Positions 42,796 to 58,871 of a stretch of 64,000 nt of DNA are shown in pieces; position 1 is the first letter of the stretch, and each line of letters begins with the position of its first letter. Source of the DNA: Nitrosospira sp. Nl5 (GTDB lineage Bacteria; Pseudomonadota; Gammaproteobacteria; Burkholderiales; Nitrosomonadaceae); assembly GCF_900102495.1 (NCBI RefSeq), contig NZ_FMVQ01000014.1, positions 1 through 64,000 on the forward strand. The letters are read 5' to 3'. A program made the translations under genes and the position numbers. Under the pieces are notes generated by a model. That model made no database searches. It was not told where the DNA came from and saw only the letters and a list, made by a program, of their open reading frames with translations.

Positions 42796-44058
42796 TTAAA
42801 AATTGTTTACGACAATCTTGCCTCCTGAAATAACAAGATCGGGGTATTCTAAAGTTTTCAGGTTATGCGTGGGGTCGCCTTTCACGGCAATAATATCGGC
42901 AGGCGCGTCGCGTTGTAAGGTGCCCAGCAGCGGCAAATCCAGATGCTGACCTGCTTTTGACGTCGCTGCACGCAAGACATCGATCAGTTCCATTTTTGCC
43001 AATTGCCTCATGTACATGAGCTCCTGAGCATCAATGCCCTGGGGAATATCTGGATGCGCAATCTCAGCCCCATATAAGAATTCACCCCCCTGCGCCGTCC
43101 AGGTTCGAGCATTGTGAGCAACACCTGAACATCTGGATAGGGTATCCATGGTAGTGACTATTTTTACATTCTGTGCGACCGCCTTTTTTAATAACGATTC
43201 AGGAATAATGTCACAGGGCACATGAGCCCACTCGTCTACGCCTGCATTGATGGCAATCTGTGCACCTTTTGCTTCGGCAATATGCGCTGTTACCTTACGA
43301 TTATTTCTATGGGCCTCATCCACAATCGCTTTTACAATATTTTCCGGCAGTAATGGCCATGCCTGCTTCGACACATGATGGGCTGGCTTGTGATGGGCAT
43401 TCGCATGTTCCGCACCCGGTTGATCATCATGCCCATGGCCGGAATCGTGGCCATGTCCGGATGACCAGGGTGCACCTGCTTCGCCACCCGGCTCCAGTGC
43501 AACCTTGATCACAACCGCACCTCCCTTAATGAGATTGCGGACAGTTTCCCGTGCTTCTTTTTCTGTGGATACAGCCGTTGCGACACTGGTATCCCCCAGG
43601 ATTGAGATGGGATAACCATTTGGGGCAGTAATAATCGGTCCGGAGGTAAGTACACGCAAACTTCCGTCTCCACCATATGGTTTGTGTATCGGTCCACCTA
43701 CATCCCGAACCGTCGTAATACCATGCTTCAGAACGGTATCAGCTGGAATATTTTGAAACGAGAGATGGGCATGCAATTCGATAAAGCCGGGAAGTATGGT
43801 TGCGTCACCCAGATCGATGACTTTCGCCTTGCTGGATTGGAATGATTCACGGGAGCCGATTTGCGCTATTTTCCCGTTTCTCACCAGTATCGAAGTATTT
43901 GTTCGGATGTTATTGCCGTCGAAAACCCGCGCGGCATGCAGAAGAATAGCTGCGTGCTCTGTTTCCTGGGCGATAGCCAGAGGTGAAGCAAAGACCGTCA
44001 GGATCAAACATAAACAGGAAATAACTTGGGCGAATCCGAAGAGCATGCGTTTCATCAT
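42796..44058 (-). CDS. Secreted metal-dependent amidohydrolase with His-rich loop
   Basis: A 420-residue protein of the amidohydrolase superfamily (imidazolonepropionase/prolidase-like). It has a signal peptide ending near LAIAQ, the metal-binding HAH in GFIELHAHLSF, His in KVTAHIAEAKGAQ and AGVDEWAHVP, and a C-terminal DIIAVKGDP. Residues about 193-226 form an unusual insertion very rich in His, Asp and Gly (GHGHDSGHGHDDQ and HANAHHKPAHH), likely a zinc or other metal store. AAGGA precedes the first ATG. It lies before the GH88-like gene on the same strand. The substrate is unknown. Confidence 0.85.
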   Translation of the reverse strand: MMKRMLFGFAQVISCLCLILTVFASPLAIAQETEHAAILLHAARVFDGNNIRTNTSILVRNGKIAQIGSRESFQSSKAKVIDLGDATILPGFIELHAHLSFQNIPADTVLKHGITTVRDVGGPIHKPYGGDGSLRVLTSGPIITAPNGYPISILGDTSVATAVSTEKEARETVRNLIKGGAVVIKVALEPGGEAGAPWSSGHGHDSGHGHDDQPGAEHANAHHKPAHHVSKQAWPLLPENIVKAIVDEAHRNNRKVTAHIAEAKGAQIAINAGVDEWAHVPCDIIPESLLKKAVAQNVKIVTTMDTLSRCSGVAHNARTWTAQGGEFLYGAEIAHPDIPQGIDAQELMYMRQLAKMELIDVLRAATSKAGQHLDLPLLGTLQRDAPADIIAVKGDPTHNLKTLEYPDLVISGGKIVVNNF

Positions 44059-44124
44059 TTCATATCCTTAATTGACAAACGTTTCAGAATTTATTCGTCA
44101 TTCGTCATGACATAATAAATAGCA

Positions 44125-45270
44125 TTAACAGTGGTGTGGTTCGATGGCATCAACGAGAATACAGAGTGCGGCCATGAGAAAAAAACTGCCCCATGCCGAC
44201 TCGACCAATTCATCCTTCCCCTGACTGGTTTTATAACAGCAGCCCCAAAATATTCCCGAATCGGTTCCATTCTTGTTTTTTTGATGGCTGCTATTTTCCT
44301 GAAACCCGGTGAAGTATTGACTGAGGACAATCGTGGTAATCTGCCGATGGGCATAGGCGCGCCATTGATTACCTCCAGACATACGATCAACCAGGGAGAG
44401 CATTGCAAGAGATGCGATGACGGAGGAAGAAGGATCACAAAGCCCCGATGGATGGCTCAGTCGATTTGGCGGCAGAGGTTCCGGACGTGAGCGTCTCCAA
44501 TATTCACAAGCGGAATGAGCATAGGTTAGATAAGGTTCTCCCCATTGTACTGCCGCCCGGCTCAATCCCAACATGGCCCAGGCTTGGCCGCGAGACCATA
44601 TACCTGCCTGATCCGTGGGTCGAAAACGCCCCTGGCTAAAATGTGCCCCGGTGTGAAACGCGCCATTATCACTACCGCATGCGGCTAACAGGGTATCTGC
44701 ATGACAACGCGAGATATTGTGATAAACGCTATGCTCACTGCAGTTCAGAAGTTGGATCAGGGAAGCAAGGGTATCTATCGTAATGAATTCGCTCCCGTCT
44801 TTTCCACCGCCCATCGCTGTACCAAGGGGAATGCAATTCATTTCAGGATCGTAGGAAGCTGCAATCGCGACAATAGATTCCTTTACAAGCTTCCGTGCAT
44901 TTGCATCGCCAAACCAGAGATCTCCCAAGGATGCCCCGTACCAAAAAATGAGGCTCCGGTTAATGGAATCACCGCCGGTTTTCCGGGACAAGCGTTGACA
45001 GATTTCTGATGCTTTGCGTTGATCCGATGTTGATCCGGTAATTCGTGATCGCAGCCACCACCACCCGCTCCAGAATCCCCCAACCCAGGAGCCACCTGAA
45101 GAGACAACCCACTGATCAGAAGATCCTGGCGAATAGAGAGGGAAGGCACTCGCGCAGTTGGAATCGACGACCTCCATGCGATGAATCATTAGCTCCAGTG
45201 CGTGCATCATTTCTTCACGGCTTAATAGCTGTTCATTGGTGTTATCAGACTTCCTTTCCAATATATGCAT
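44125..45270 (-). CDS. GH88/GH105-like glycoside hydrolase
   Basis: A 381-residue cytoplasmic (alpha/alpha)6-barrel protein resembling unsaturated glucuronyl hydrolases. It has WVGGFWSGWWWLR, FITIDTLASLIQLL with Asp166, RPTDQAGIWSRGQAW with Asp220 (the two Asp match the catalytic pair of the family by motif), DPSSSVIASLAML and the end LVESAWGSFFLMAAL. There is no signal peptide. It lies 14 bp before the stop side of the porin gene, so the two are probably cotranscribed. Uronic-acid use would be odd in an autotroph; the true substrate is unknown. Confidence 0.75.
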   Translation of the reverse strand: MHILERKSDNTNEQLLSREEMMHALELMIHRMEVVDSNCASAFPLYSPGSSDQWVVSSGGSWVGGFWSGWWWLRSRITGSTSDQRKASEICQRLSRKTGGDSINRSLIFWYGASLGDLWFGDANARKLVKESIVAIAASYDPEMNCIPLGTAMGGGKDGSEFITIDTLASLIQLLNCSEHSVYHNISRCHADTLLAACGSDNGAFHTGAHFSQGRFRPTDQAGIWSRGQAWAMLGLSRAAVQWGEPYLTYAHSACEYWRRSRPEPLPPNRLSHPSGLCDPSSSVIASLAMLSLVDRMSGGNQWRAYAHRQITTIVLSQYFTGFQENSSHQKNKNGTDSGIFWGCCYKTSQGKDELVESAWGSFFLMAALCILVDAIEPHHC

Positions 45271-45283
45271 AAACAGTGTCTCC

Positions 45284-46801
45284 TCAGAAAATCAGGTTGA
45301 AATCCACATAGACCATATCGGCATCTTTCTTGCCCTGATAAACGTTTTCGATGACACTGCCGCCGAATGCATGCCCGTAATAGAATCTCCAGGACAATTT
45401 CTTGGTGAGAGTATGTGTGAAGCTTATGTCCACCAATTGACCCACATCACCCTTGCCATCCGAAGGTCGTCCCGAATAACCGAATGCTCCCGAGCTCGCC
45501 GTCGGTCCCAACCCTCCATAGAACAGATCGCCTGAGTTGGTGAGCGACAAATGATGCAGGTCAATCGTCACCTTGGTCGCCGGAGTGGGTGATACCGTCA
45601 TCTGTAGAAACGCATCTTGCAAATTCATCAGATTGTAGAACGGCAATTTGGCATAAGCGCGCCCGCTGGGGAGCATTGAAAAGAAAGTGTTATGCATACC
45701 GTCTTTTGCGTTGTCATCCCCCGAGCTCAGAAAGTAGATTGCACGCAGCCATGGTTTAACGGGAAGCTGGGTCCATTGATAACCGGCCTCGGCGGCTATG
45801 GCCCAGGCTTGATGGTCCTGGTTGGTCCAATTTCCAAACTGATACGCTCCCCACAATAAAGCATCGATGCTGCCCGAATCCCATTGATGAAGGGTCAGCA
45901 GATGGGCGCCTATTGTCTGTATATTCAGGTCCTGGCTATTAAGCTGAGGTCGATCGTTGATCGGCCGGTTATCTACCACCTGTGTATTGCGCTTGTCATC
46001 GTAATTCAGGTAGAAGAGTCGACCTTCCGTCCCTGGCAACAATGCATCCTTCTTGCTGGTTAGCGCTGCGTAAAACAGGTTGATATCGCCGATTTCATCT
46101 TGCCCCTGGACAGTAAATCCACCCTGGGTTGGATGCATGCCGGTCGCCGTTATATTGAAAGCTGGTTGATCATAAACAGCGTTAAAGCCATCGAAGCTTC
46201 GCCCTACATGGACAACGTTCGATGCCACGAGGCGTTGCGCGACACGCGTCCTTTTGAGACCATCGAACTTGTCAATGCCAGTTCCGTATTCCATACCATC
46301 CATAAATTCGAAACGGCCGATTTTCAGGAATGCACCTGGCGCTCCCACCGAGTTGAATTTGAGGTTAAGGTAAGCCTGTTTCAAAAAAACGTTACTGGCA
46401 TTCGTGGACTGATTCGCCAAGAAATAAGCTCCCCCCAATCCTAAAGGACCGGCGGGAGATGCAACTGCATCATCGGGAAGGCCGTATAAACCAACATATT
46501 GCGCTTGCGCATAGGCATCGACATAAGAAGTGGTGAGCAGAGCACCGAACCTGGCGCGTAGCGCCCACAAATCGTAAGCGTTACTATCGTTTATTGCCGG
46601 GCTAGGCCGGAAATAGTTCCATGTCTCATAGCTGCCGTACAGCTCACCAGTGATGCGCATGTATTGGTTGATCTGACCCAACGGCTTGAGTTCTTCAGCT
46701 CCCAGGGTGCCGCTGATTTGCAATATGGATCCCATAATCATCCACAGAATTAAATGGTTCAATCGCATGCCGCATGGATTGGCTTGTTTATTTACATGCA
46801 C
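45284..46801 (-). CDS. Alginate export-type outer-membrane beta-barrel protein
   Basis: A 505-residue protein with a signal peptide (about 1-34) and a beta-barrel body of alternating aromatic strands matching the AlgE/alginate export domain: YMRITGELYGSYETWNYFRP, LWALRARFGALLTTSYVDAYAQAQYVG, FLKIGRFEFMDG, YDQPAFNITATGMHPTQGG, ending in Phe (YVDFNLIF). The porin probably passes an acidic sugar or small polar compound. Gene order porin-GH88-amidohydrolase suggests one operon. Confidence 0.75.
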   Translation of the reverse strand: MHVNKQANPCGMRLNHLILWMIMGSILQISGTLGAEELKPLGQINQYMRITGELYGSYETWNYFRPSPAINDSNAYDLWALRARFGALLTTSYVDAYAQAQYVGLYGLPDDAVASPAGPLGLGGAYFLANQSTNASNVFLKQAYLNLKFNSVGAPGAFLKIGRFEFMDGMEYGTGIDKFDGLKRTRVAQRLVASNVVHVGRSFDGFNAVYDQPAFNITATGMHPTQGGFTVQGQDEIGDINLFYAALTSKKDALLPGTEGRLFYLNYDDKRNTQVVDNRPINDRPQLNSQDLNIQTIGAHLLTLHQWDSGSIDALLWGAYQFGNWTNQDHQAWAIAAEAGYQWTQLPVKPWLRAIYFLSSGDDNAKDGMHNTFFSMLPSGRAYAKLPFYNLMNLQDAFLQMTVSPTPATKVTIDLHHLSLTNSGDLFYGGLGPTASSGAFGYSGRPSDGKGDVGQLVDISFTHTLTKKLSWRFYYGHAFGGSVIENVYQGKKDADMVYVDFNLIF

Positions 46802-46882
46802 GAGCTAAAATTCTTCCGCTCGCCCATTCTCGCTTCTGGTTTGGAATATACAGAAACCAGAGAACTCGGAATCCGAAAAATC

Positions 46883-47701
46883 ATGGAATCAATCTCCTCT
46901 AAAGATGGCGCACCCATCGCTTGCTGGAATAGCGGCGTAGGGGAGCCTCTGTTACTCGTGCATGGGACCTCTGGGGATCATTTTGCATGGGCATCGGTAT
47001 TGCCCGCCCTTGAACGTCAGTTCAGCGTATGGACCATTGATCGACGGGGACGTGGTCACAGCGGCGATACCGACAGCTATACACTCGAACGCGAATGCGA
47101 AGATGTCGCTACTGTCATTGATGCTATCGGGAGTACCGTGCATCTTCTCGGACACTCCTTTGGAGGCCTGTGTGCCCTGGAAGCCGCACTCCTGACTCCA
47201 AACATCGGCAGTCTCATCCTCTATGAACCGTCCATCTCGCTGGCTGGCAGTGGCTGGTCTGTGGAGCTCGAAGAGAACATGCAATCCCTGTTAGGTGCAA
47301 GTAACCGGGAAGAGGCTTTGCTGCTCTTTTTCCGTGATATTGTCAAAACGCCACCCCATGAGATTGCTGCCATGCAAACTGGATCGAGCTGGCCAGGGCG
47401 GATAGCTGCAGCTCACACGATTCATCGCGAATTGTGCAGTATCAACCAGTACATTTTCGATTTCCGGCGGTTTCGCGCCTTTCAAGTTCCCACATTGATT
47501 CTGCTTGGCGGCGAGAGTCCACCGCGCCGCCACCTTGTTGCCGAGACGCTTCATCGGTCCCTGCCCGACAGTCAGCTTGCGATGCTTCAAGGGCAGCAAC
47601 ACAGCGCGATGAGAACTGCGCCTGACTTGTTCGTCCATGAAGTTGTAAAGTTCTTAAATATCCACGGCAGTGACGCGTTGGGCGGCACGGACCGTCTTTA
47701 G
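46883..47701 (+). CDS. Alpha/beta hydrolase
   Basis: A 272-residue hydrolase with oxyanion-hole region LLLVHGTSGDHFAW, the nucleophile elbow GHSFGG, a conserved Asp region in LILLGGESPPRR and the catalytic His in LQGQQHSAMRTAP. The frame extends 43 codons upstream and alternative starts exist (for example at 46796), but the ATG at 46883 gives the family N terminus. It is the only rightward gene of the thiocarboxylate-like cluster and overlaps the 3' end of the MFS gene by 48 bp. Its role there is inferred from position. Confidence 0.8.
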   Translation: MESISSKDGAPIACWNSGVGEPLLLVHGTSGDHFAWASVLPALERQFSVWTIDRRGRGHSGDTDSYTLERECEDVATVIDAIGSTVHLLGHSFGGLCALEAALLTPNIGSLILYEPSISLAGSGWSVELEENMQSLLGASNREEALLLFFRDIVKTPPHEIAAMQTGSSWPGRIAAAHTIHRELCSINQYIFDFRRFRAFQVPTLILLGGESPPRRHLVAETLHRSLPDSQLAMLQGQQHSAMRTAPDLFVHEVVKFLNIHGSDALGGTDRL

Positions 47702-48889
47702 CGACTGCGCCAAGCGCCGGCGAGCGGACGCCAGCGCCCATGACATGACACCAGCACATAAAAGCACACCAACCAACGTGCTCCAGCCAAGCAGCAAGCC
47801 ACCGGAATAATTTGACATGGCACCATAGAGCGGTGGACCCAGCGCGAAGCCGCCGAAGAAAGCTACTGAAACAAAGCCGGATGCCGTAGTCACCTGACCA
47901 AAAGCCGGGTCTCTTATCAACATACTCATCGCTATTGCATTAGTGCCCACCGCCGTAAGTCCCATACCCACGGCACCCACCCATAGCCTCCAGTGGCTTT
48001 CCGGACTTGCTTGCATCGTTATCGCCATCGCACACGCTGCAATTGCAATCAATACAAGCAGAAGCAGCGATTCGTCTTTAAGTTTTGCTCCCATGGGCGT
48101 CAGCATTATTCTGGAAAGCATTCCCATTACACCGAAGACGGCAATCAAGGTACCGGCCATAGATAGTGGCATGCCTTGCTGGTTAGCGAAGGTCGGCAGG
48201 AACGTGACGAAAGCGGAGAGTGATATGCCAACGCAGAATTGCACGCCCATCAGCCGCAGCAACAGCGAGTTCGGCGGTGAAAAGGTGAAGGCCTTACCTG
48301 TCCTGCTGTGTTTCTTCGGCGTGACGAAAAGTGTCATTATTGCGAATAAGGCTGCCACTGGGACAACCATGCCAAACGCAACACGCCAGTCATGCTGAAA
48401 TGCGATAGCGGGAAGTATCAGTCCAGCGAATAGCGCTGCGAGCTGAACGCCGGACTGCTTGAGGCCGACAATCCTTGCCTTTTTCTCCGGCGGAACCTGT
48501 TGCGCGATGAGTAAATTTGTGACTGGATTTGCGAGTGCCTGGGCGATTCCGCAAATGGCGGCCGCCACGACCAAACCATAAAAATTTTCAACCGTTGCAA
48601 TCAGCGTGAATGCAAGTGCGATAGCAGAGAAAAGCAGCATCAGCGTATAACGTGAGCCAATGCGGTCTACGAAAGCGCCCGCCCAGAGGGATAAAACAGC
48701 CGCCAGGCCAAATGAACTCATTACCAGGTAACCCAGTAATGCGGGCTTGAAGTGCAAGTCACGGGTAAGGAGTGGCCCAAGCGTGCCAATGGCGTATAAA
48801 ACCAGCATGGGCAAAGCCATCGCAAATACCAGGACAACTCCGAACCATATATTCACACTGGTCGTGTGCCGGTTGGTGATTGTTACCAT
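47654..48889 (-). CDS. MFS transporter, probable exporter of the cluster product
   Basis: A 411-residue major facilitator with 12 predicted helices, opening with NIWFGVVLVFAMALPMLVLY. It has the loop 2-3 motif GAFVDRIGSRYTLM, the repeated equivalent GMLSRIMLTPMGAK and a basic inter-domain loop (TPKKHSRTGK). The ATG at 48889 is preferred over one 16 codons upstream because GGGGGA lies 9 bp before it. The pdt and qbs clusters also include an MFS gene. It converges with the hydrolase with a 48-bp overlap. Confidence 0.87.
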   Translation of the reverse strand: MVTITNRHTTSVNIWFGVVLVFAMALPMLVLYAIGTLGPLLTRDLHFKPALLGYLVMSSFGLAAVLSLWAGAFVDRIGSRYTLMLLFSAIALAFTLIATVENFYGLVVAAAICGIAQALANPVTNLLIAQQVPPEKKARIVGLKQSGVQLAALFAGLILPAIAFQHDWRVAFGMVVPVAALFAIMTLFVTPKKHSRTGKAFTFSPPNSLLLRLMGVQFCVGISLSAFVTFLPTFANQQGMPLSMAGTLIAVFGVMGMLSRIMLTPMGAKLKDESLLLLVLIAIAACAMAITMQASPESHWRLWVGAVGMGLTAVGTNAIAMSMLIRDPAFGQVTTASGFVSVAFFGGFALGPPLYGAMSNYSGGLLLGWSTLVGVLLCAGVMSWALASARRRLAQSLKTVRAAQRVTAVDI

Positions 48890-49024
48890 CTCCGCGTCCC
48901 CCGCCGACAATCCGGCAGCGCAAATAGCGCGGCACACGCAACTAAGGGCAGGAGCACGCCAATCAGCGTGCCGCGACCGGACAGTAAGTCACCAAAAAGA
49001 TGCGGGAGGTTTGCAAACACTGGA

Positions 49025-50239
49025 TCAGCCAAAGTGATATGCGTCCTCTTCCTTAAAGAAGTTGATGAGCCGGCGGCCGACTGAGCTGATAAGCGACTCA
49101 TCCGAACCATCAAGGATGCGTGATGTGCGCGCTATTCTATAGATGCCGGAAAGCGGGGTAAGATCACTGATGCCTTCGGCGCCATATAGCTGTATTGCCG
49201 AGTCCGAGGCAACGCATAAAGCTTGTGATGCGGCTACCTTGGCGACATTGATCTCGACATCGCTTGAACGCTGGGCATCAACCCCTCTCGCCGCTACCCG
49301 AATTAATTCACGCGCGCTCGCAATAGCCTGATATGCGTTGACGACGTGTTGCCGCACTAGTTGCTTTTCCGGCAATCGAGCAGACCGGCCACGTTCAGAA
49401 TTAATTCGGGCGCCCATTAGATCGAAACATCGTTGCGCCAGCCCCACCCAATTCATCGAACGAAGCAGTCGGCCAATGCCAAGCCGCTGGCGCATTAAAT
49501 CAATGCCGCTGCCGCTCGTGCCCAAGAGATTATGGTTGGGGACCTTTACACCCCTAAAAGATATTTCGCCCTGACCAAGGAAGCGGCCCATCATGGTGAT
49601 CTGACGTTCAACCTTGAACCCAGGCGAATCGGTGGGGACGATAATCATGGAAAGCGCCTTGCCAAGAGCAGTGTCTTCTCCGGCGGTACGCACCAGGACA
49701 GTGACAAAAGTCGCCCGGTCCGTGTTGCCGACGAACCATTTTCTGCCATTGATAGCCCAACTTCCGTTTGACAGGTGGGCGGACGCTGTTATCAAGCCAG
49801 GAAATGATCCGCCATGCCCCGGTTCTGTCATACCGTAACTTGGGGTGGCTGTCCCGGCTACCATGGGTTCCAGAAAGTTTTTATGAATTTCATCGGTGCC
49901 AAATTTGAGGAACATATGCGCATCAAGCGCGGAGTGGCTGCCAAAAATTGTCTGAGAGAATTCCGTGCGCCCCTCCTGCTCCGCAACAATCAGGTAGTCT
50001 TCGAGAGAAGCTACCTTTCCACCATGGGAGAGCGGATAAAATAGGCCCCATAGTCCGGCACGCCGAGCCTCTTCGGCCAGTTTTGATTGAAGCCGAAATG
50101 ATGAATCTCCGTCTTGAGCCATTTGTGGTTCGCTTGGGATGACCATTTCATCAACAAACTTTCTCACCTCGCGCGCGAGCGATCTGGCTAGCTCTGTATG
50201 CGCTGATTCTCCATGTATTCCCAGCATTAATGCGCCCAT
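49025..50239 (-). CDS. Acyl-CoA dehydrogenase-family flavoprotein
   Basis: A 404-residue ACAD-fold protein with the FAD/substrate region SYGMTEPGHGGSFPGL, INGRKWFVGNTDRATF, SMIIVPTDSPGFKVER and the C-terminal RTSRILDGSDESL. At the place of the usual catalytic Glu in the IYEGT motif it has Asp377 (ILDGS), as in the ACAD10/11 type. The start may be the ATG at 50227, which overlaps the AMP-ligase stop as TAATG, or the one at 50239. It is next to the AMP-ligase gene; the substrate is probably the acyl group it activates. Confidence 0.87.
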   Translation of the reverse strand: MGALMLGIHGESAHTELARSLAREVRKFVDEMVIPSEPQMAQDGDSSFRLQSKLAEEARRAGLWGLFYPLSHGGKVASLEDYLIVAEQEGRTEFSQTIFGSHSALDAHMFLKFGTDEIHKNFLEPMVAGTATPSYGMTEPGHGGSFPGLITASAHLSNGSWAINGRKWFVGNTDRATFVTVLVRTAGEDTALGKALSMIIVPTDSPGFKVERQITMMGRFLGQGEISFRGVKVPNHNLLGTSGSGIDLMRQRLGIGRLLRSMNWVGLAQRCFDLMGARINSERGRSARLPEKQLVRQHVVNAYQAIASARELIRVAARGVDAQRSSDVEINVAKVAASQALCVASDSAIQLYGAEGISDLTPLSGIYRIARTSRILDGSDESLISSVGRRLINFFKEEDAYHFG

Positions 50240-51891
50240 TGGACCAGCCCTGGTTTAGTTGCCTGCTGGGTAAACTCAATCTCCGCAGTTAACTGCTTTT
50301 TATCAACTTTTCCTGCTGGGCTAAGTGGAAGTTGCCGGTAATAGCGTAAGTATTCCGGCAGCTTGTTGGTCTCTAAACCCTGTTCATGCAAATAGCTGGT
50401 AAACTGGGATAGCGAGGGACGTTCGACTCCATCTCGCAATACCAGACAGAGGCAAACTCGATGTCCCAGATCCGGATCGGCCACTGGTACACAGGCAGCG
50501 CTGACGACAGCCGGATGGGCAACGGCAATGTTTTCGATTTGAGCAGGACTGATATTGACACCACCCCGAATGATGATGTCTTTCTTGCGTCCGGACAGCA
50601 CCAGATATCCGTCATTATCAATAAGGCCAAGATCTCCGGTATAAACCCAGCCATTATCGTCTCGGTATAGAGCATCGAGGTCGGAGGCATTGACATATTG
50701 CATCGGGCTTATTGGACCTCTGGCCGTAATTTCACCGACGCAGCCTTGCGGCACCTCGCGCTTCTGGTCATCGACTATCCGGATGGAACAAACATCTGGA
50801 TTCGGTCGTCCCGCTTTTAAAAAAACGGTTTCCAAATTATCGTCAAGCATCGTGTGGCAGTTAACGCCATCCGCCGAGCCGTATAAGCTGATAAAACCAC
50901 ATCCAAATGCCTCAGTACACCGGCGGATGGTGGCTTCATCGATTTTCGCTCCACCGCTGATAATGGCGATCAGGCTGGAAGTATCGATCCTGGATAATGC
51001 AGGGTCCACGATGATGCGTTGAAACATGGTGGGAACCCCAAAGATATGGGTCGGTTTTAGCTCCGCGATAGTTTGAATGGCAGCCGCGACATCGAATTGC
51101 CGCAAGGTGATAATCGCGCCACCAAGCCAGGATAAAACACCAAACGTCGCGGTTGAACCGAATGCGGTGCCAAGCGGCATCAGGTAAAGCCCTTTAAAGG
51201 TACTTCCCTCAGGATGTATTCGTTGCAAAAAACGCCCTCGTCCGCCAGCTAGCGCGTTGTGAGAATAAGCCACCCATTTTGGCTCGGACTCTGTTCCGGA
51301 AGAGATGAGGAAACGAACGGGTGAATTGGGGCAAACTGTTGGGAGCTTATCAAGCTCAATTGGCTCGGCCTGAAACAGGTCATCCAGGGTGTGCCAGCAA
51401 TCCAGGGCTTTTCCATCGACAATAAGAATACGGAGTGATAGCAAAGCAGGCCGTAACGATTCAATAAGTTCACACAGGTCAATTCCAGCATATTCCCGCT
51501 CGACAATAATCACCCGCGCATCACACCTTGTGAGTAAAGACTGCGTGTCAAGGCGGCCACGTCCCGGTGGGAAAGGCGCCACGATCGCGCCCAGTGCTGC
51601 AGTGGCGAGATCGATTGCGCAGCTATGCCAACTGTTGGGAAGCTGGTATGCAACAACATCTCCTGAAACAACCCCCAGCGCCTGAAAGCTGGCAGCCAGG
51701 CGGCGAACTTTGTCCAACAGCTCAATGTAAGTGATGGTTCGATCAAGAGATATAACCGCCGGGCTGTCAGGACGTTGCCATACATGCTCACAGAACAGCT
51801 CGTATACGGATTTATTTGGATAGGTTCCATTCTGAGCCCACTCGTGGCGAACTTCAGCAGGAACCATATCTATGATTCCGGAATGATTCAT
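50227..51891 (-). CDS. AMP-dependent acyl/aryl ligase (class I adenylate-forming)
   Basis: A 554-residue ligase with a P-loop-like A3 motif FLISSGTESEPKWVAYSH (about 190), GFISLYGSADG, YTGDLGLIDNDGYLVLSGRKKD with IIIRGGVNISP (about 415-450) and a C-terminal LSPAGKVDKKQL with the catalytic Lys. In the qbs system QbsL adenylates the carboxylic acid substrate before sulfur transfer, and pdtJ has the equivalent position. Here it probably activates the unknown carboxylic acid. It overlaps both neighbours by a few bases. Confidence 0.9.
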   Translation of the reverse strand: MNHSGIIDMVPAEVRHEWAQNGTYPNKSVYELFCEHVWQRPDSPAVISLDRTITYIELLDKVRRLAASFQALGVVSGDVVAYQLPNSWHSCAIDLATAALGAIVAPFPPGRGRLDTQSLLTRCDARVIIVEREYAGIDLCELIESLRPALLSLRILIVDGKALDCWHTLDDLFQAEPIELDKLPTVCPNSPVRFLISSGTESEPKWVAYSHNALAGGRGRFLQRIHPEGSTFKGLYLMPLGTAFGSTATFGVLSWLGGAIITLRQFDVAAAIQTIAELKPTHIFGVPTMFQRIIVDPALSRIDTSSLIAIISGGAKIDEATIRRCTEAFGCGFISLYGSADGVNCHTMLDDNLETVFLKAGRPNPDVCSIRIVDDQKREVPQGCVGEITARGPISPMQYVNASDLDALYRDDNGWVYTGDLGLIDNDGYLVLSGRKKDIIIRGGVNISPAQIENIAVAHPAVVSAACVPVADPDLGHRVCLCLVLRDGVERPSLSQFTSYLHEQGLETNKLPEYLRYYRQLPLSPAGKVDKKQLTAEIEFTQQATKPGLVQWAH

Positions 51892-53798
51892 CTGAAACTC
51901 CAGGGAGAATTGACGCTTGTATAGGAGCCAGGGCTCAGGCTCGCCTTTAGATATGCTATGTTCTGCAGGTCAGCGAGGTTTTCGATAACCACAGCGCAAG
52001 GAACGCGTGCTTCTTCAAGAACTTCAGCCCATGCAGTAGCGGTTCTCGACAGGAATAAAACCTCCAGGTTGTCCTCAGAATCAGCCGTTTCAGTGCCAAT
52101 CGCAATTTCAAGAACCTCGGCTAATCGTATTAATGTCGCTGTATCGCAACATTCAACGGCTATTTTTCCCTGCTTAGTGTCATAAATCTTATCAATAATA
52201 CTTTTTGAGGTTTTGCGAGTGGTGGCCGGTAGGTTATATACGTCATGAAAATCATCTGCACATAAAAGTGTTGCCGCACCCATCAGAGATGAAGTGACCT
52301 TCGCACCGACGTTGTTCAGGCATCGATTGAGCAGCGCAATCGTGATTCCTTGTGCCGCAACAACGCCACCGAGTACGTCAAGCACCGTAAATAAGGAACC
52401 GCCGTGAGTACCAGAGGTTTCGGCGACCTTTTTAGCGATACCGGAGTAGGCTTGCGTCATGAAATCCGTGCCTGGCATTGAGCTCAAAGGGCAATGTGCT
52501 GCCCTGTCTGTTGCCCAACCAGCAGCATAGGCATAAATCAGGGAGCGATTAATTGAAGTCAGATCCTCGTCGTCGAGATTTAACAGCACCGCTTTACCGG
52601 GTGCCCAGTTATGCAGAAAAACGTCGGCATGGCGTACCAGCTCCTTGATTTCCGCTTGTCCGGCTGGAGACTTGATATCTACTTCACGAATCGTTTTAAG
52701 GTGGTTAAGCGCATCGAATCGTGCCGAGCAACCCTCGGCCATCGGCGGCATACCTCGCAGCGGGTCTCCGCCTGGCGGCTCTACCCTGATAACCGTTGCA
52801 CCCAAGAGAGCGAGCAGGTGCCCTGCAAGAGGACCTTGAATCCGCCGGCAGGATTCGATGATGGTAAATCCGCTTAACGGCAAGTCACCGGTAACACGCG
52901 TCGACGCTCTGCTCGATGCCCTGCCGCCGGGACTTGTCTCGAAAACGAACTCCCATGGCCCCTGGTGCCACACATGTTGACAGTCGTCATCCTTGGCCCT
53001 GTCATCGACAGAACGAAGCGGACAAATGGACATGCCAGTGCGGGAACATATTTGTGAAATACAGTAGTAAGTGAGATTTGATATCGCACGGGACAATTCG
53101 CTAGGCAGAGGGGATATGGCTGTGGCGTATCTCAGCAGAAAAGCGGGCCACGCTTTTCCAGCCGCTGTTGAACTCACACCGATCTCGGTCCAGAACTTCT
53201 GCCAGGGACCGGCATTGAGTGTTTCGAGTTCAAAGAAGACACCATCCAGCGAAACAAAGGGAGGATGGTGCCCATGTGAGATAGTGCCCGGAAATAGTGC
53301 TTCGGGAGACTCTGAGGCTGTTGCTCCCGCTATATACTGTCCTAAGCTTAATAGGGCTGCGGATGCCATCGAAACGCTGCTGTGCCCGACGGAAAGACCC
53401 CGCAGTTGACCAATCGAAGCGGCTACTCCACCCAGAAGCGCCAATGCGGCGGTCAAGGTCGAGACGTAGTTCAACCCTAATGGCCGATATTTGCCGCTTG
53501 CTCGCCCATGCACCGACATGAGTCCACAAGCCGCCTGCATTATATTTTCAGTCGCAAGGGCTTGCCTGGAAGCATCGCTCCATTTACCCACATCGCATAT
53601 GATTGGCGTGGTGTGCGGAGTCTTGAATTCAAAAGAAAGCGCTGCATTTTCGGAAGAGCTCTCGCTCGGCTCGATTTTGATGCCCAGTGCGGCAGATTGG
53701 TAAAGTAGGGAAGATGCTATAGCAAGCTCAGGAGCATGATGTTCAAATGGCCCTGTTATCACGCAACCGGTTAAGGCACGATTCATACTCATTTTCAT
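51888..53798 (-). CDS. Tandem CaiB/BaiF-like CoA transferase fusion
   Basis: A 636-residue protein, much longer than a normal family III CoA transferase (about 400). The C-terminal part, about 318-636, has a complete start (FTIIESCRRIQGPLAGHLL, LLGATVIRVEPPGGDPLRG) and the segment GGSLFTVLDVLGGVVAAQG with Asp474 at the family catalytic position. The N-terminal half, about 85-180, is a second CaiB-like middle section (MQAACGLMSVHG, LGLNYVSTLTAALALLGG) but lacks that Asp (Ser instead) and the Rossmann start. Similar proteins occur in pdt/qbs clusters. It overlaps the ligase gene by 4 bp. Confidence 0.82.
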   Translation of the reverse strand: MKMSMNRALTGCVITGPFEHHAPELAIASSLLYQSAALGIKIEPSESSSENAALSFEFKTPHTTPIICDVGKWSDASRQALATENIMQAACGLMSVHGRASGKYRPLGLNYVSTLTAALALLGGVAASIGQLRGLSVGHSSVSMASAALLSLGQYIAGATASESPEALFPGTISHGHHPPFVSLDGVFFELETLNAGPWQKFWTEIGVSSTAAGKAWPAFLLRYATAISPLPSELSRAISNLTYYCISQICSRTGMSICPLRSVDDRAKDDDCQHVWHQGPWEFVFETSPGGRASSRASTRVTGDLPLSGFTIIESCRRIQGPLAGHLLALLGATVIRVEPPGGDPLRGMPPMAEGCSARFDALNHLKTIREVDIKSPAGQAEIKELVRHADVFLHNWAPGKAVLLNLDDEDLTSINRSLIYAYAAGWATDRAAHCPLSSMPGTDFMTQAYSGIAKKVAETSGTHGGSLFTVLDVLGGVVAAQGITIALLNRCLNNVGAKVTSSLMGAATLLCADDFHDVYNLPATTRKTSKSIIDKIYDTKQGKIAVECCDTATLIRLAEVLEIAIGTETADSEDNLEVLFLSRTATAWAEVLEEARVPCAVVIENLADLQNIAYLKASLSPGSYTSVNSPWSFR

Positions 53799-53820
53799 AT
53801 GGGATGCGAGTGAGTTCAGC

Positions 53821-54093
53821 TTACCCTCCCGCGACAGCGGGCAAAATGGTCAATGAATCGCCATCTCGCAGCTGTGTTGATAGCCCATTGCCAAAGCGAA
53901 TGTCATCATCGTTTACGTAAATATTAATGAAGCTGTGTGACTCCCCTTCGGTAATCAGTTTCTCCTTAACGCCGGGATACTGGTGCTCCAATTGGTCGAT
54001 GACTTCAAGAACATTGAAACCAGAAATTTCGATGCGCTTCTGATTATTGGTGAGCGGTCTAAGTATGGTTGGGATATTCACAGTGATAGGCAT
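53821..54093 (-). CDS. MoaD/ThiS-like sulfur carrier protein
   Basis: A 90-residue ubiquitin-fold sulfur carrier. It opens MPITVNIPTILRPLTN, has VLEVIDQLEHQYPGVKEKL and FINIYVNDDDIRFGNG, and ends DGDSLTILPAVAGG. The C-terminal Gly-Gly is the residue pair that the ThiF/MoeB enzyme adenylates and converts to a thiocarboxylate, the sulfur donor. It ends exactly at Gly-Gly, whereas QbsE has two extra residues. AAGGA precedes the ATG. It is 22 bp upstream of the CoA transferase start in the same operon. Confidence 0.93.
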   Translation of the reverse strand: MPITVNIPTILRPLTNNQKRIEISGFNVLEVIDQLEHQYPGVKEKLITEGESHSFINIYVNDDDIRFGNGLSTQLRDGDSLTILPAVAGG

Positions 54094-54205
54094 AGTTATT
54101 CCTTTTCGGTTTTATGATCAAAAAAACTAGAAATTGTGGGAGGAGGGGCGAAGCGTGGAGATCGACTTCAATTCAAGCTCCGGGCTCCCTTTACGACTGG
54201 CAATA

Positions 54206-54697
54206 TCACCTATGGTGATGGTGATGATCTTCCTTGTTGCCCGCTTGCAGCTCAGAAACGTTCGCTTTCTGGATATTCTTGGACGTGGATTTGAGCGGAG
54301 TAAAGCGAGCAGTTGCGGCTTCCTGTCCTGGCAGTTCAACGAACACTGTCACCACCGTCTGGGGGGTAACAGCAAAATCTCCCGCTCCCTTAAACATATT
54401 TTCACCTGCCGGTTCCAGCTTGACCGAAGTTTTATCCTTGGCCTTGCCGACTTGAACGGTCGCTTTGCCGCCGCCGCCCAGGGTGCTCAAATTACGGTCG
54501 GCATGATCCATTACATAGAGCACAATCTCCTTATCCTTGGCGACAAGCTCGATGTGATAAGGACCGGCCATGCGTGTCTGCCCGCCATGGGCCGATTCTT
54601 TGGATTCGAAATATGCTTCGTTGTGCGCCCCGCCAGACATTGATGCTCCCGCCAGCGTAGCACCAATAAGCATGACGGCGATTCTTGATGTATTCAC
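54206..54697 (-). CDS. Periplasmic protein with C-terminal His tail
   Basis: A 163-residue secreted protein with a signal peptide (about 1-24, GTG start, GGGAGAG 8 bp upstream). The body is beta-rich (GPYHIELVAKDKEIVLYVMD; KATVQVGKAKDKTSVKLEPAG; TVVTVFVELPGQEAATARF) and matches a family of small proteins I have only seen near metal genes. It ends KED followed by five His and Arg. It has no enzyme motif. It sits between the sulfur carrier and the JAMM peptidase, so it may bind the metal or metal-product complex. Confidence 0.7.
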   Translation of the reverse strand: MNTSRIAVMLIGATLAGASMSGGAHNEAYFESKESAHGGQTRMAGPYHIELVAKDKEIVLYVMDHADRNLSTLGGGGKATVQVGKAKDKTSVKLEPAGENMFKGAGDFAVTPQTVVTVFVELPGQEAATARFTPLKSTSKNIQKANVSELQAGNKEDHHHHHR

Positions 54698-54755
54698 TTT
54701 AATCTCTCCCTAGATTGGTATAGTTCGCCTGGGTTTATGGGAAGGGTTATACAAC

Positions 54756-55199
54756 TTAGGCCACCATTGACAATTCCCATTCTGCTTTATATGAATCCAG
54801 CATTCTGACTCGTTCTTCGGTCACCATGCCGTCCACAATGCGGAAGCTGCGGATCTCTTCCCTATAAACCGCATCTGTTGGAATGATGACGTAATGAGAT
54901 CGCGGCTCTGTTGCATATTGGACATCGATACGGCTGGGGTAGGCTTGCGTATTGGTGTGCGAATGGTAGATAACGATGGGCTCCTCGCTTCGCATTTCCA
55001 TTGTTCTCCAAACCTGAAGATGCTGCTGGGAATCGAATCTAAAAAAAGTTTCCGATTGGGCCACATTGCGCATTGGAATAAAACGTAGCGGAAGATTTGA
55101 ACCCGCGGGTCCGGCGATGATTCCACAGGTTTCAATAGGATGATCTTTATGTGCTTGAGCAAGCATCGCTTCGACAAGTTTGGCGTGTATCGTCAGCAT
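54756..55199 (-). CDS. JAMM/Mov34-type metallopeptidase
   Basis: A 147-residue JAB1/MPN+ peptidase. The zinc site is complete: Glu23 in HPIETCG, and H79-x-H81-x7-S89-x2-D92 in YHSHTNTQAYPSRID. Relatives trim sulfur-carrier tails (QbsD) or release cysteine from CysO-Cys (Mec+). Here the carrier already ends in Gly-Gly, so the second role or removal of an adduct is more likely. It lies 59 bp from the His-tailed protein gene, upstream of it, on the same strand. An AGGAG lies 11 bp before the ATG. Confidence 0.9.
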   Translation of the reverse strand: MLTIHAKLVEAMLAQAHKDHPIETCGIIAGPAGSNLPLRFIPMRNVAQSETFFRFDSQQHLQVWRTMEMRSEEPIVIYHSHTNTQAYPSRIDVQYATEPRSHYVIIPTDAVYREEIRSFRIVDGMVTEERVRMLDSYKAEWELSMVA

Positions 55200-55331
55200 A
55201 ATTCTTCAACTCCTGGGATAGTAGGTTGATTGAAATGAAAAACAGAATTCTCTGTTCTGCCAGAAGAAGCAGCTCTTTTAATCGTGGCAAATTAAGCAAT
55301 TGCTTAATAATTAATAATCTCCCTAGCTCAA

Positions 55332-56504
55332 CTAATAGCCTGGCAATGAGCGATCGACATCCCTTATCCACGCTAAGATTCCTCCGTCCAAGCTCTTTAC
55401 ATTTGTAAAACCATGTTTTTGCATTTCCATGAGAACATCCTTGGAGCGAATGCCCATCTTGCAGTGAAGGATGATGAGGTCTTCTTTGTTTAACCGGGAT
55501 AAATTTTCTTCCGACATGATCTTGTTTTTAGGTATATGGCTTGCACCTTCAATACGGACAATGTTCCATTCTTCGATTCCTCTGACATCGATGAGCTGCA
55601 TATCCATGCCGCTTTCCCGCAGTTGTTTCAACTCCAAGGCACTGATCACCGGAACATTTGTTTTGTTGTCGGTTGCCAATTTCCTTGATCCGCAAAATTC
55701 CTGATAATCGATCAGTGCCGTTATAGAAGTTCTTACCGGCGCTCGCCGTAACGGTATAAATCTATACGTCATATCCAGGGCATCATAGACAGCGAGGCGG
55801 CCGAGTAAGGTTTCGCCCAGGCCAGTGATTAATTTAATAGCCTCTGTCGCCATGATTGCACCGATCGATGCGCAAAGAATGCCTAATACCCCACCTTCCG
55901 CGCAGGAAGGTGCCATTTCTGATGGGGGCGGCTCAGGGTAAAGATCACGATAATTCAGACCGCGTCCGCCCGGCGCATCTTCCCAGAAGACGGAAGCTTG
56001 TCCTTCGAACCGGAAGATGGATCCCCAGACATAGGGTTTTCCCGCAAGCACGCAGGCATCATTGACAAGATATCGCGTAGCAAAATTATCCGTCCCATCG
56101 ATAATCAGGTCATAGCCGGGAATTATCCCCATAGCATTATTTGCTTCCAAGCGTTCAGTATGGAGCTGAACATGAACATAAGGGTTCAGTTCGTTGATAG
56201 CGTCCTTCGCGCTCTTGGATTTGAATCTTCCGATATCCGATTGCCCATGAATGATTTGCCTTTGCAGGTTTGATTCATCGACGATATCGAAGTCGGTGAT
56301 TCCCAACGTCCCAACTCCCGCCGCAGCGAGATACAGAAGTACCGGAGATCCTAGGCCCCCGGCGCCTATCACCAGGACTCTACTATTCTTGAGGCGCTTC
56401 TGTCCTTCCAAACCAACGTCAGGAATCAACAGATGACGGCTGTACCGTGAAATCTCATCATTGCTCAAGTCTTTCGAAGGGTGTACTAGCGGTAATAGTT
56501 GCAT
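55332..56504 (-). CDS. ThiF/MoeB-rhodanese fusion (MoeZ type), sulfur carrier activation
   Basis: A 390-residue protein. Residues about 14-250 are an E1-like adenylating domain (SRYSRHLLIPDVGLEGQ, VIGAGGLGSPVLLYLAAAG, IIDGTDNFATRYLVND, CAEGGVLGILCASIGA), and about 285-385 are a rhodanese domain with active Cys348 in LHCKMGIRSKDV. It adenylates the Gly-Gly of the sulfur carrier and transfers sulfur to make the thiocarboxylate, like QbsC/PdtF. GGAGG lies 6 bp before the ATG. It follows the receptor gene by 109 bp on the same strand. Confidence 0.93.
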   Translation of the reverse strand: MQLLPLVHPSKDLSNDEISRYSRHLLIPDVGLEGQKRLKNSRVLVIGAGGLGSPVLLYLAAAGVGTLGITDFDIVDESNLQRQIIHGQSDIGRFKSKSAKDAINELNPYVHVQLHTERLEANNAMGIIPGYDLIIDGTDNFATRYLVNDACVLAGKPYVWGSIFRFEGQASVFWEDAPGGRGLNYRDLYPEPPPSEMAPSCAEGGVLGILCASIGAIMATEAIKLITGLGETLLGRLAVYDALDMTYRFIPLRRAPVRTSITALIDYQEFCGSRKLATDNKTNVPVISALELKQLRESGMDMQLIDVRGIEEWNIVRIEGASHIPKNKIMSEENLSRLNKEDLIILHCKMGIRSKDVLMEMQKHGFTNVKSLDGGILAWIRDVDRSLPGY

Positions 56505-56613
56505 TAGAAACCTCCATGTTTAAATCAACCTTTAGTTTCCTTAACACTGGAATCGAAAATGAATCCGGAAGATAAGATTGAATGCGATGCCTTTATTTAT
56601 GAATACTGAATAT

Positions 56614-58557
56614 TCAGAAGCTCGCGGATAAGCCGATTTGACCCCAGCGCCCCGGCATGGGATACCCTGGCCGATAAGCGTAGTTGGCATCCAGGAGGTT
56701 TTCCATGGCTACGAAAATTTCGCCTCTTTTGCCTAGCATCGGCAGCCGGTGAGAGACACGCGCATTCATGATCACAAATGCATCAACTTGCTCGGTGCTG
56801 GGGACTCCCGCTGCGCGCGGACGGCTAAGCGCCAATATGCTTGACTGATACTGGGTATCGATTGTCAAGCGGATAGGCCCTATCTGCCCATTTATACCCG
56901 CCGTAACAGCCCTCTTTGGTGTATAGGGCAAATTGTCGATGCTGGGATCAAGCAGGGTCAGGCCGCCAAATATCGTCCAATTCGGGGTAATATTTTGTCT
57001 GATTGCAATTTCGGCGCCACGCATCACATAGGTACCGAGATTCAAAAACTGAGGAGGCGGTGGAACAAGTGGCGGGAAACCAAAGATGTAGCGGTTTTTT
57101 ACCTGGTCGACAAACACGCTGATATCGATTTGCGTTGTATCAGTAGGGGTCAGCTTCACACCGACTTCGGCGTGATGGAGTTCCTCCGCGGCAAGTTGTT
57201 TCCATGTTTGTCCCAGCGGAGGAATCAAGGAGGAGAGAACCGGAGCTTCCAAACCCGGATAGTTGATGCCGCGTGACACATTGCCGAATATCGTGACTCT
57301 CTCGGAAACCAGGGACAGGCCGGCATGTGGCGACGTTCTGGTTTGGAACACGCTATGGTCATATACTCGTATCCCGAGTGCCGGGACGAGCGACCAGCCT
57401 TTGCCTAGATCGATCTTCTGGCTCAGCGCGACGTAAGGTGAGGTGACGCGAAAAGTCGGTGAATTAAAGTTGCCCTGGGGTGCTGGGGCTATTCTGTTAA
57501 ATCGCGTATTACCTGAAACCCAATCGCTATCCAATCCGGCAACAATAGCTCCACCCTTCCATAGAGAGAATTCTTCTTTCCAGCGCACGCCAGTCATCTG
57601 GAAATTATTGAACTGATCCCCTTCCAGTCCGGGTTGATGCAACCAATTGCCTTCGCCTCTATTGTGGTAAAAACGCAAATCCCCACGCCAGTCACCATGA
57701 CGATGCGATAAAAAAAAAGAAACCATTCCCGCCTGAGTGTTGTATTGTGGCGCTACTGCAGGCATCGGCAGACGATTATCCCCCGGGTCACGCGCCTGGT
57801 TGTCGACATAAAGGAAGCTCGTGCCAACCGACCAATCGGCATTCAGCCGCACGCCGATGCGGCCCATGACGTTATTCAATTCGCCGCTCGCATTGGGCCG
57901 GTGACCATTCGACTGGGCGTGGCCTTGTGCCAGCATAAAATCGACGTTACCCCTGCGTCCCACCAGATCTGCTTGCTCAATAAAGGTGCTAAAGTATCCC
58001 CCGGATATTCTTCCATTGGCCTGCACGCCATCTTCGGTTGCACGCTTGGTTTCCAGATTGATCGAGGCAAAGTTGTTTCCGTTGATTTGCGGTTGTGGGC
58101 TCTTGTAAACAGTGATGGACTGCATGCCATTGACGGGCAACAAGTCGAGCAACGGGTGATTCCATACGCCCATGTAAAACGGAACGCCATCAATGTAAGT
58201 CTTGATTTCGCTGCCTGGACGGCTTACGCCCATTCCGCGAATATAAACGGCGCCGCCTTGATCGCCACCAAAGCCGCCCACCGGGTTGTAGCGTGATATT
58301 TGCACCCCGGGGGTACGGCGCAGTGCTGAAGCCAGATCGAACGCATTCTGATCGCGCAACTGGCTCTCGTTGACCACCGCGGATGTGCTTGAAAACGGGT
58401 CGATGCGAACGCGATCAATGATCGGATTAGCTGTTACAACAACCGGAGATAGTGGGGTACTCGGAGATGATGCGGTACTCTGTGCCATTGCAAACCCTGA
58501 GAAAATCATTGTTACAGCTGCGCATGTTACGGCTACTACGATTTTTCTTATTTTCAT
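56614..58557 (-). CDS. TonB-dependent outer-membrane receptor of the thiocarboxylate-like cluster
   Basis: A 647-residue receptor with a signal peptide (about 1-25), a plug (SALRRTPGVQISRYNPVGG; YIRGMGVSRPGSEIKTYIDG) and a 22-strand-type barrel ending RWGQIGLSASF. The pdt and qbs clusters each encode such a receptor (PdtK, QbsI) for the metal-thiocarboxylate complex. No STN domain is seen. A nine-base T run on the coding strand lies in the middle. It heads the leftward cluster after a 701-bp gap and has no good ribosome-binding site. Confidence 0.92.
   Translation of the reverse strand: MKIRKIVVAVTCAAVTMIFSGFAMAQSTASSPSTPLSPVVVTANPIIDRVRIDPFSSTSAVVNESQLRDQNAFDLASALRRTPGVQISRYNPVGGFGGDQGGAVYIRGMGVSRPGSEIKTYIDGVPFYMGVWNHPLLDLLPVNGMQSITVYKSPQPQINGNNFASINLETKRATEDGVQANGRISGGYFSTFIEQADLVGRRGNVDFMLAQGHAQSNGHRPNASGELNNVMGRIGVRLNADWSVGTSFLYVDNQARDPGDNRLPMPAVAPQYNTQAGMVSFFLSHRHGDWRGDLRFYHNRGEGNWLHQPGLEGDQFNNFQMTGVRWKEEFSLWKGGAIVAGLDSDWVSGNTRFNRIAPAPQGNFNSPTFRVTSPYVALSQKIDLGKGWSLVPALGIRVYDHSVFQTRTSPHAGLSLVSERVTIFGNVSRGINYPGLEAPVLSSLIPPLGQTWKQLAAEELHHAEVGVKLTPTDTTQIDISVFVDQVKNRYIFGFPPLVPPPPQFLNLGTYVMRGAEIAIRQNITPNWTIFGGLTLLDPSIDNLPYTPKRAVTAGINGQIGPIRLTIDTQYQSSILALSRPRAAGVPSTEQVDAFVIMNARVSHRLPMLGKRGEIFVAMENLLDANYAYRPGYPMPGRWGQIGLSASF
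57710..57718 (-). repeat. Poly-T tract (9 T on coding strand) in the receptor gene
   Basis: Nine A on the plus strand encode Phe-Phe-Leu in a beta-strand. A tract of this length may slip. The frame is intact as given. Confidence 0.85.
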
Positions 58558-58627: not shown

Positions 58628-58820
58628 TAAATCATGGCCTGCGCGCATAATCAATGTTGCTTCTTATGCTTCTATATTCCCTATAAAGCTTTCTGTGGTT
58701 TTGATGGGTTATGCCACACTTACCCATCCTACATAAGTACAAATGCCTGGAGATTGCTTGTTACAAACGCTCTATGCTTGCTCAATGGGGAATGTAAAAC
58801 AAATTGATGAGATTAGGAAT

Positions 58821-58871
58821 GTGGCATATTGCCGCATGTGTCATATTGTCGCATGCGACATATTGCCGCAC
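58821..58871 (+). repeat. Three tandem 17-bp direct repeats (operator-like)
   Basis: Units at 58821, 58838 and 58855 read GTGGCATATTGCCGCAT, GTGTCATATTGTCGCAT and GCGACATATTGCCGCAC. They share the core CATATTG-CGCA and have no spacer. A degenerate fourth copy may be at 59038-59054. Direct repeats of this kind in front of a gene usually bind a regulator. Confidence 0.75.
58847..58860. promoter_or_regulatory. Perfect 14-bp palindrome at the repeat junction
   Basis: TGTCGCATGCGACA is its own reverse complement and spans the junction of the second and third 17-bp repeats. It could be the binding site of a dimeric regulator. Confidence 0.5.

Follow-up and report, generated by a model that had tools for sequence, protein, structure and literature searches.

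The window, a stretch of 64,000 nucleotides (nt) of contig 32 in the genome of Nitrosospira sp. Nl5 (3.03 Mb, 99% complete), carries a cluster of about 12 genes at 42796-58557 that appears to make, secrete and recover a small thiocarboxylic-acid metallophore, with copper as the probable main metal, that is, a chalkophore. We give this reading as a whole a probability of roughly 0.57. A thiocarboxylate product is strongly favoured, and its use as a metallophore is probable. The first-pass annotation, made from the letters of the window, had proposed a possible new cluster of the pdt or qbs type. The assignment to a thiocarboxylate set of this type is upheld by the five core genes, an Asp motif in CaiB and the tail pattern of the sulfur carrier, but the core gene class is already known: Nitrosomonas europaea and Nitrosospira multiformis were listed with homologues of PdtF-PdtJ under 'siderophore biosynthesis' (Iyer et al. 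2006, PMC1779556, Table 1, row 4a). As far as we searched, with few subscription papers covered, the copper link, the extra inherited genes, the decay of the carrier tail and a redox box are new. The host was supposed to be a likely ammonia oxidiser, and this agrees with the single AmoA/PmoA gene in its genome and with Nitrosospira and Nitrosovibrio being the closest named relatives of the locus.

Gene content and inheritance

Pfam confirmed every gene family named at the outset. The core consists of an E1-like ThiF/MoeZ protein with a C-terminal rhodanese domain (55332..56504, minus strand; ThiF 2.4e-77, Rhodanese 3.2e-16; HCKMGIR loop), a JAMM/JAB metallopeptidase (54756..55199, minus; Prok-JAB 5.1e-28; HxHx10D motif HSHTNTQAYPSRID from residue 79), a ThiS/MoaD-like sulfur carrier ending in a bare Gly-Gly (53821..54093, minus; ThiS), a CaiB protein extended at its N terminus like two-domain members (51888..53798, minus; CoA_transf_3 1.9e-62 in two stretches) and an AMP-dependent acyl/aryl-acid ligase (50227..51891, minus; AMP-binding). 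Around it lie a cluster-type TonB-dependent receptor (56614..58557, minus; Plug), an acyl-CoA dehydrogenase-like flavoprotein (ACAD; 49025..50239, minus; recognised by Pfam, closest solved structure ACAD11 at 1.2e-49), an MFS transporter proposed as the exporter (47654..48937, minus; MFS_1 8.2e-40) and an alpha/beta hydrolase (46883..47701, plus; Abhydrolase_6). The near-single-strand layout with overlaps was also seen: the hydrolase is the sole plus-strand member, and overlaps of 13 nt (ligase/ACAD), 4 nt (CaiB/ligase) and 48 nt (hydrolase/MFS, convergent) were measured. The longest hydrolase frame begins at 46754, and a start at 46883 is likely because loci L006 and L014 align only from residue 42 of that frame.

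The limits first drawn, 46883-58557, were too narrow, since three genes below 46801 travel with the set. These encode an Alginate_exp-type outer-membrane barrel (45284..46801, minus; Pfam 2.7e-29), a GH88-like protein with the fold of unsaturated glucuronyl hydrolase (UGL; 44125..45270, minus; profile match to UGL 1.8e-23) and a probably exported amidohydrolase with a His-rich insert (42796..44058, minus; Amidohydro_1).

Gene order was read directly from the sequences. It was the same in all eight named Nitrosospira/Nitrosovibrio loci (L005-L012), running receptor, E1-rhodanese, JAMM, ThiS, CaiB, ligase, ACAD, MFS, barrel, GH88-like protein and amidohydrolase, with the opposite-strand hydrolase present in six of the eight. 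The Methylobacter locus L014 has all the cluster genes, with the receptor and the amidohydrolase moved; there, as in the eight loci, the barrel adjoins the cluster and the amidohydrolase stays with it. Both the hydrolase and the barrel are missing from a ninth locus of the same genus, L038. Nineteen sister-genus loci (L019-L037) share the order as far as their stretches reach, the contig of L030 ending right after the ligase. A synteny search had been suggested as a check; the order is kept in Nitrosospira/Nitrosovibrio, the sister genus and Methylobacter, and its conservation exceeds chance. In genome G052 (L034/L058) the ligase is matched by two pieces separated by about 8 kb, which suggests that DNA was inserted within the cluster.

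The distribution is patchy. CaiB was found in 35 of 125 genomes of the family and in 15 of 23 of the same genus; the GH88-like gene was found in 39 of the 125, and all 35 CaiB genomes are among those 39. Beyond the family CaiB is rare. At E 1e-40 it was found in 6 of 399 genomes of the order, of which 3 belong to other families; in the Methylobacter order 3 of 251 genomes have it, L014's own counted; and a class sample of 369 genomes, searched at E 1e-80, gave only the window's own genome. In most genomes of the class and order samples no more than three first-look candidates were scored, so that misses are soft in the class and order CaiB counts and in the order receptor count given below.

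Between the JAMM and ThiS genes lies a gene for a small His-tailed, probably exported protein (54206..54697, minus) that has no match in Pfam or NCBIfam and occurs, among the cluster loci, in the window and L005 only. Its AlphaFold model (pLDDT 53.8) was too weak for use.

Sulfur transfer and the acid

The tail of the carrier follows the presence of CaiB. VAGG is present in 10 of 10 aligned copies, and the Gly-Gly was kept in all 35 CaiB-positive loci read (the window, L005-L012, L014, L019-L038, L048-L050, L075 and L076). The carrier stops at the Gly-Gly in 24 of these (the window and 23 of the 34 others) and continues past it in the other 11: by 1 to 11 residues in L005, L008, L010, L019, L020, L028, L034, L038, L048 and L049, and in Nitrosospira multiformis Nl18 (L011:9692-11902) by an in-frame fusion to CaiB, giving a protein of 737 residues in which the Gly-Gly is internal unless cut. 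These extended tails would give the JAMM peptidase a natural trimming role in those loci. Two tandem JAMM genes were seen in Nitrosospira genome G094 (L038:11530-12501), where the carrier ends in GGC.

Four sister-genus genomes carry the GH88-like gene without a CaiB match, and their loci (L044-L047) look like decayed clusters. They retain JAMM and ThiS; of ACAD, one has a near-complete copy and another only a fragment; and a loose scan at E 0.01 gave no match to ligase, CaiB or E1. Their carrier tails read AGN, TAD, AGN and TAG instead of AGG. Because Gly-Gly is kept with CaiB (35/35) and lost without it (4/4), these data suggest that the carrier is tied to the thioacid steps. We infer that the ThiF-rhodanese protein would put sulfur on the Gly-Gly of the carrier, with the JAMM peptidase trimming extended carriers.

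The same core could instead deliver sulfur for cysteine, molybdopterin or tRNA, or serve SAMP-like protein tagging, the other genes being incidental. MoeZ is indeed the best-scoring model for the E1-rhodanese protein, the carrier matches MoaD and SAMP1 models, and JAMM-E1-Ubl sets also occur outside siderophore clusters (PMC1779556). We nonetheless regard this explanation as very improbable: no cysteine synthase or moa gene was found among the window genes scanned (39487-61763), two more ThiF-family genes lie elsewhere in the genome, 8 of 23 same-genus genomes have no CaiB match, and the carrier tail is lost where CaiB is missing. Gene content and tail loss together lowered a cysteine, molybdopterin or tRNA sulfur relay as a candidate.

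For the thiocarboxylate reading, an experimental precedent exists in PtmA3/PtmU4, a thioacid cassette of an AMP ligase and a two-domain CaiB protein (PMC6006322). The window ligase and CaiB, whose genes overlap, resemble that pair. Asp445 in the PGTDFM motif of CaiB is invariant in 10 aligned rows, and we liken it to D430, the catalytic Asp that PtmU4 carries in its C-terminal transferase domain, by motif and position, the alignment holding no PtmU4 sequence. Unlike PtmA3/PtmU4, the present genes have the carrier, E1 and JAMM within the cluster and a receptor and exporter present, and the acid is presumably a different one.

As to that acid, the nearest solved structures to the ligase are aryl-acid ligases (DhbE, 1md9, 4e-59), and Pfam finds AMP-binding only, with no methyltransferase domain. 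The alignment with DhbE has a gap at the HNY stretch, whose Asn presumably has an established role in DhbE. A 2-hydroxyaryl acid such as 2,3-dihydroxybenzoate or salicylate was lowered as the substrate because that stretch falls in the gap. The motif RILDGSDE of ACAD stands at about what we take to be the usual position of the catalytic Glu. For the GH88-like protein there was no Pfam match at E 0.001, and the best 12 Foldseek matches were all UGL. Asp149 of Bacillus UGL is kept as Asp166 and Asp88 is not kept in the alignment; we take both to be active-site residues. The reaction is therefore probably not the sugar one, and an ordinary GH88 enzyme, which the fold would fit, was set aside for the missing Asp88.

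On a plasmid of Streptomyces sp. BHT-5-2 (L017:8142-15449) the genes for MFS, GH88-like protein, ACAD, CaiB and ligase are contiguous at 28-42% identity, and the stretch has no E1, JAMM or ThiS match. Because this group joins ACAD and the GH88-like protein to CaiB and ligase, it suggests that both take part in making the acid; it may represent a related thiocarboxylate pathway with no sulfur carrier of its own nearby. Counting against such a role for the GH88-like protein, the outgroup clusters L048-L050 have ACAD and no GH88-like match in the stretch. In the proposed pathway the ligase would turn an acid, probably aromatic or heteroaromatic, into its CoA ester, ACAD would oxidise the ester, and the two-domain CaiB would transfer the carrier sulfur to the acyl group. 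The product may then leave through the MFS transporter, perhaps via the Alginate_exp barrel, and the TonB receptor would recapture the metal complex.

Receptor, metal and regulation

The metal is indicated by genes beside the receptor. Within L005-L012 the receptor is 79-89% identical, and it adjoins the cluster in all nine other Nitrosospira loci read. Among 397 genomes of the order, the cluster-type receptor (E 1e-120) was found in seven, two in the family and five outside it (G564, G619, G702, G760 and G788). All five of the latter have a gene matching NF033672, the 'copper uptake system-associated protein' model mbn_chaper_assoc, next to the receptor on the same strand, with scores of 120-131 bits (cutoff 50) and gaps of 12-154 nt. 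NF033672 was found in only 6 of 300 genomes of the order; this sample and the 397 are different lists, and G788 is not among the six. PCuAC copper chaperones occur at the G619 and G564 loci (2/5), a MauG-type di-haem protein at G619, and TonB-copper model matches, all below the model cutoff, in G702, G564 and G788 (3/5). G702 and G760 also carry E1, JAMM, ThiS, CaiB, ligase and ACAD, the G760 receptor lying on another contig. Because copper-uptake genes adjoin the receptor in these relatives outside the family, the evidence points to copper over iron, a choice that the first-pass annotation had left open.

Several observations weigh against a copper metallophore recaptured by this receptor. 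The copper neighbours occur in relatives only, NF033672 being absent from the window's genome, seven other Nitrosomonadaceae and Methylobacter as searched. The cluster-type receptor is adjacent in just 1 of the 19 sister-genus loci (L024); CaiB-positive G038 gave no match to it in the order scan; and the G718 stretch (L050) has a FauA-like siderophore receptor in its place. The stretches from G564, G619 and G788 (L139-L141) have receptor and NF033672 with no cluster gene in 15 kb, so the receptor may take other copper chelates, and these genomes are possibly users of a foreign chelator. Haem-type models beat the TonB-copper model for G564 and for the larger of the pieces from G702, and a second G619 receptor scores as siderophore type. 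Precursor genes, moreover, were not seen, as the first-pass annotation had remarked: a scan of window genes, with no search of the remaining genome, gave neither these nor xanthurenate-type genes or a QbsL-type fusion. To the same side belong two features of the promoter: the 17-mer described below, not found in Methylobacter L014, is present in just 2 of the 19 sister-genus loci, and a RegA-type box does not in itself constitute a site for a copper sensor.

Two observations on receptors stand apart. The receptor and copper-receptor-like genes at L049:15397-19672 span more than one reading frame. Membership of the window receptor in the CrtA family was considered and dropped, CrtA not being among the PDB matches at E 0.001, in a PDB copy whose CrtA content is unchecked.

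Iron would be the metal if the product were a siderophore similar to pyridine-2,6-dithiocarboxylate (PDTC) or thioquinolobactin. It might even be PDTC itself, formed from the lysine-pathway intermediate dihydrodipicolinate through oxidation by ACAD. A siderophore of this type is consistent with the five core genes, which are those of pdt/qbs, with the FauA-like receptor beside the G718 cluster, and with the best NCBIfam match of the window receptor, a generic TonB-siderophore model. However, no Fur box above shuffles was found upstream of the receptor in any of 10 loci, 500 nt each; the best match to the Fur consensus was 11-13 of 19 and was equalled by 10-89% of shuffles. Copper-uptake genes lie beside the receptor in the five outgroup genomes, and the ligase has no methyltransferase domain, unlike the qbs-like fusion at L016. 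N. europaea, listed with the core, is reported negative for siderophores by genome and by chrome azurol S (CAS) assay (PMC3050691). We therefore consider an iron siderophore unlikely; the Fur-box scan and the receptor's neighbours lowered it as the default reading.

Less probable still is that the thiocarboxylate disarms extracellular copper or harms competitors and acquires no metal. An RND pump gene (39487-42570) adjoins the cluster, and such a gene is also near it in L007, L009 and L038; thioplatensimycin is a thiocarboxylate antibiotic (PMC6006322); and in 18 of the 19 sister-genus loci the receptor is not adjacent. Against this stand the receptor beside the cluster in all the other Nitrosospira loci read and its box site, which is also found upstream of a redoxin-TonB-ExbB-ExbD group in the same genome.

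In Nitrosospira the receptor promoter has a redox box of the RegA/PrrA type, and no Fur box stands out there. Upstream of the window receptor, at a distance of about 260-310 nt (58820..58870), lie boxes of the RegA/PrrA/RegR type, within an array of TGYGRCA/TGYCRCA half-sites. The 17-mer TGYGRCAWWWTGYCRCA stands at 58820-58836 and 58854-58870, and the palindrome TGYCRCATGYGRCA at 58847-58860. This 17-mer was found upstream of the receptor in all 10 Nitrosospira loci having the region. Genome-wide it occurs at 6 places, where equal base frequencies would predict about 0.02 and the reversed pattern gives none; in 15 more genomes, cluster-positive and cluster-negative, it occurs at 2-11 places, with none for the control. 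The window site GCGGCAATATGTCGC agrees by eye at 14 of 15 positions with the RegR consensus GNGRCRTTNNGNCGC (PMC5506826), and a strict scan for that consensus gave no full match. From these sites a RegA-type redox regulator is likely to act at the receptor.

In the regions read, genes up to 700 nt from a copy of the 17-mer encode, among others, a RegB/PrrB/ActS-like kinase in six regions by similarity (the one copy scanned scored 270 bits, cutoff 350), the redoxin-TonB-ExbB-ExbD group, further TonB receptors, PEP-CTERM proteins and paralogues of the 54206-54697 protein. One such paralogue, on contig C24, is 66% identical and has a RegA-type box upstream. Riboflavin-synthase-like and DksA-like genes near the 17-mer have no evident link. 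An AHTRLE-type gene and an EF-hand protein at RegA-type boxes had been considered as YcnI-like and as a bufferin, respectively, and both were dropped for want of family support. The window site (58820-58870) and sites on contigs C23, C24, C25 and C30 (L071-L074) make up what looks like a small RegA/PrrA-type regulon, which was also seen in cluster-negative Nitrosospira.

Relation to known systems and meaning

The qbs system uses a xanthurenate route and a QbsL-type methyltransferase fusion. Like pdt and qbs (row 4a of Iyer et al. 2006), the cluster brings together E1-rhodanese, JAMM, ThiS, CaiB and AMP ligase with a TonB receptor and a transporter. It differs in that the window genes scanned include neither a kynurenine nor a methyltransferase part, in the copper neighbours of the receptor in relatives, and in the carrier, which is bare in 24 of 35 loci. 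It also inherits ACAD, the Alginate_exp barrel, the GH88-like protein and the amidohydrolase, for which pdt was not compared. A qbs-like locus was seen in Burkholderia multivorans (L016:7424-22384), with ThiS-JAMM-E1, CaiB, a ligase/O-methyltransferase fusion, an ABC transporter and a TonB-receptor-like match. It served as the stand-in for QbsL in the trees, at 39-40% identity (ligase 40%), and has a long branch in both.

Both trees unite the copies from ammonia oxidisers and methanotrophs in a single supported group (CaiB 98/99, ligase 100/99). The position of Methylobacter L014 differs: the CaiB tree places it with Nitrosospira and two copies of the sister genus (92/85), and in the ligase tree it branches before all ammonia-oxidiser copies, and the direction of transfer is unsure because of this difference. 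The outer joins of the trees are likewise unsure because the branches are long.

Methanobactin, an oxazolone-thioamide, offers another comparison. Both systems would use a TonB receptor to supply a copper monooxygenase with its metal, and the gene beside the relatives' receptor is named mbn_chaper_assoc; here, no peptide precursor was seen and the chemistry proposed is that of a thiocarboxylate. The proposed uptake of chelated copper, with PCuAC in some loci, also resembles that of CrtA-type TonB copper transporters (PMC12914433). A 2022 review credits N. europaea with neither siderophore nor chalkophore biosynthesis genes (PMC9693385), and in a 2026 study of the copper requirements of this species methanobactin comes up for methanotrophs only (PMC13003922).

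A bolder and doubtful proposal is that of a peptide-free thiocarboxylic-acid chalkophore common to ammonia oxidisers and some methanotrophs and made with no dedicated precursor pathway. UGL enzymes hydrate an enol ether adjacent to a carboxylate. The GH88-like protein could, by this proposal, act on a chorismate-type acid by opening its enolpyruvyl ether, after which the ligase would form the CoA ester, ACAD would aromatise it and CaiB would add the sulfur. A RegB/RegA-type system sensing respiratory state might turn on recapture when copper enzymes falter, and receptor-only relatives might pirate the complex.

Both ammonia monooxygenase and its counterpart for methane depend on copper, and the route by which ammonia-oxidising bacteria are supplied with copper is an open question. 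If the copper metallophore is real, it would join PDTC, thioquinolobactin and photoxenobactin E among thiocarboxylate metallophores. The cluster would then offer a defined set of genes to delete in N. multiformis or N. europaea, with which the copper question could be tested directly, and nitrification would be tied to competition for copper.

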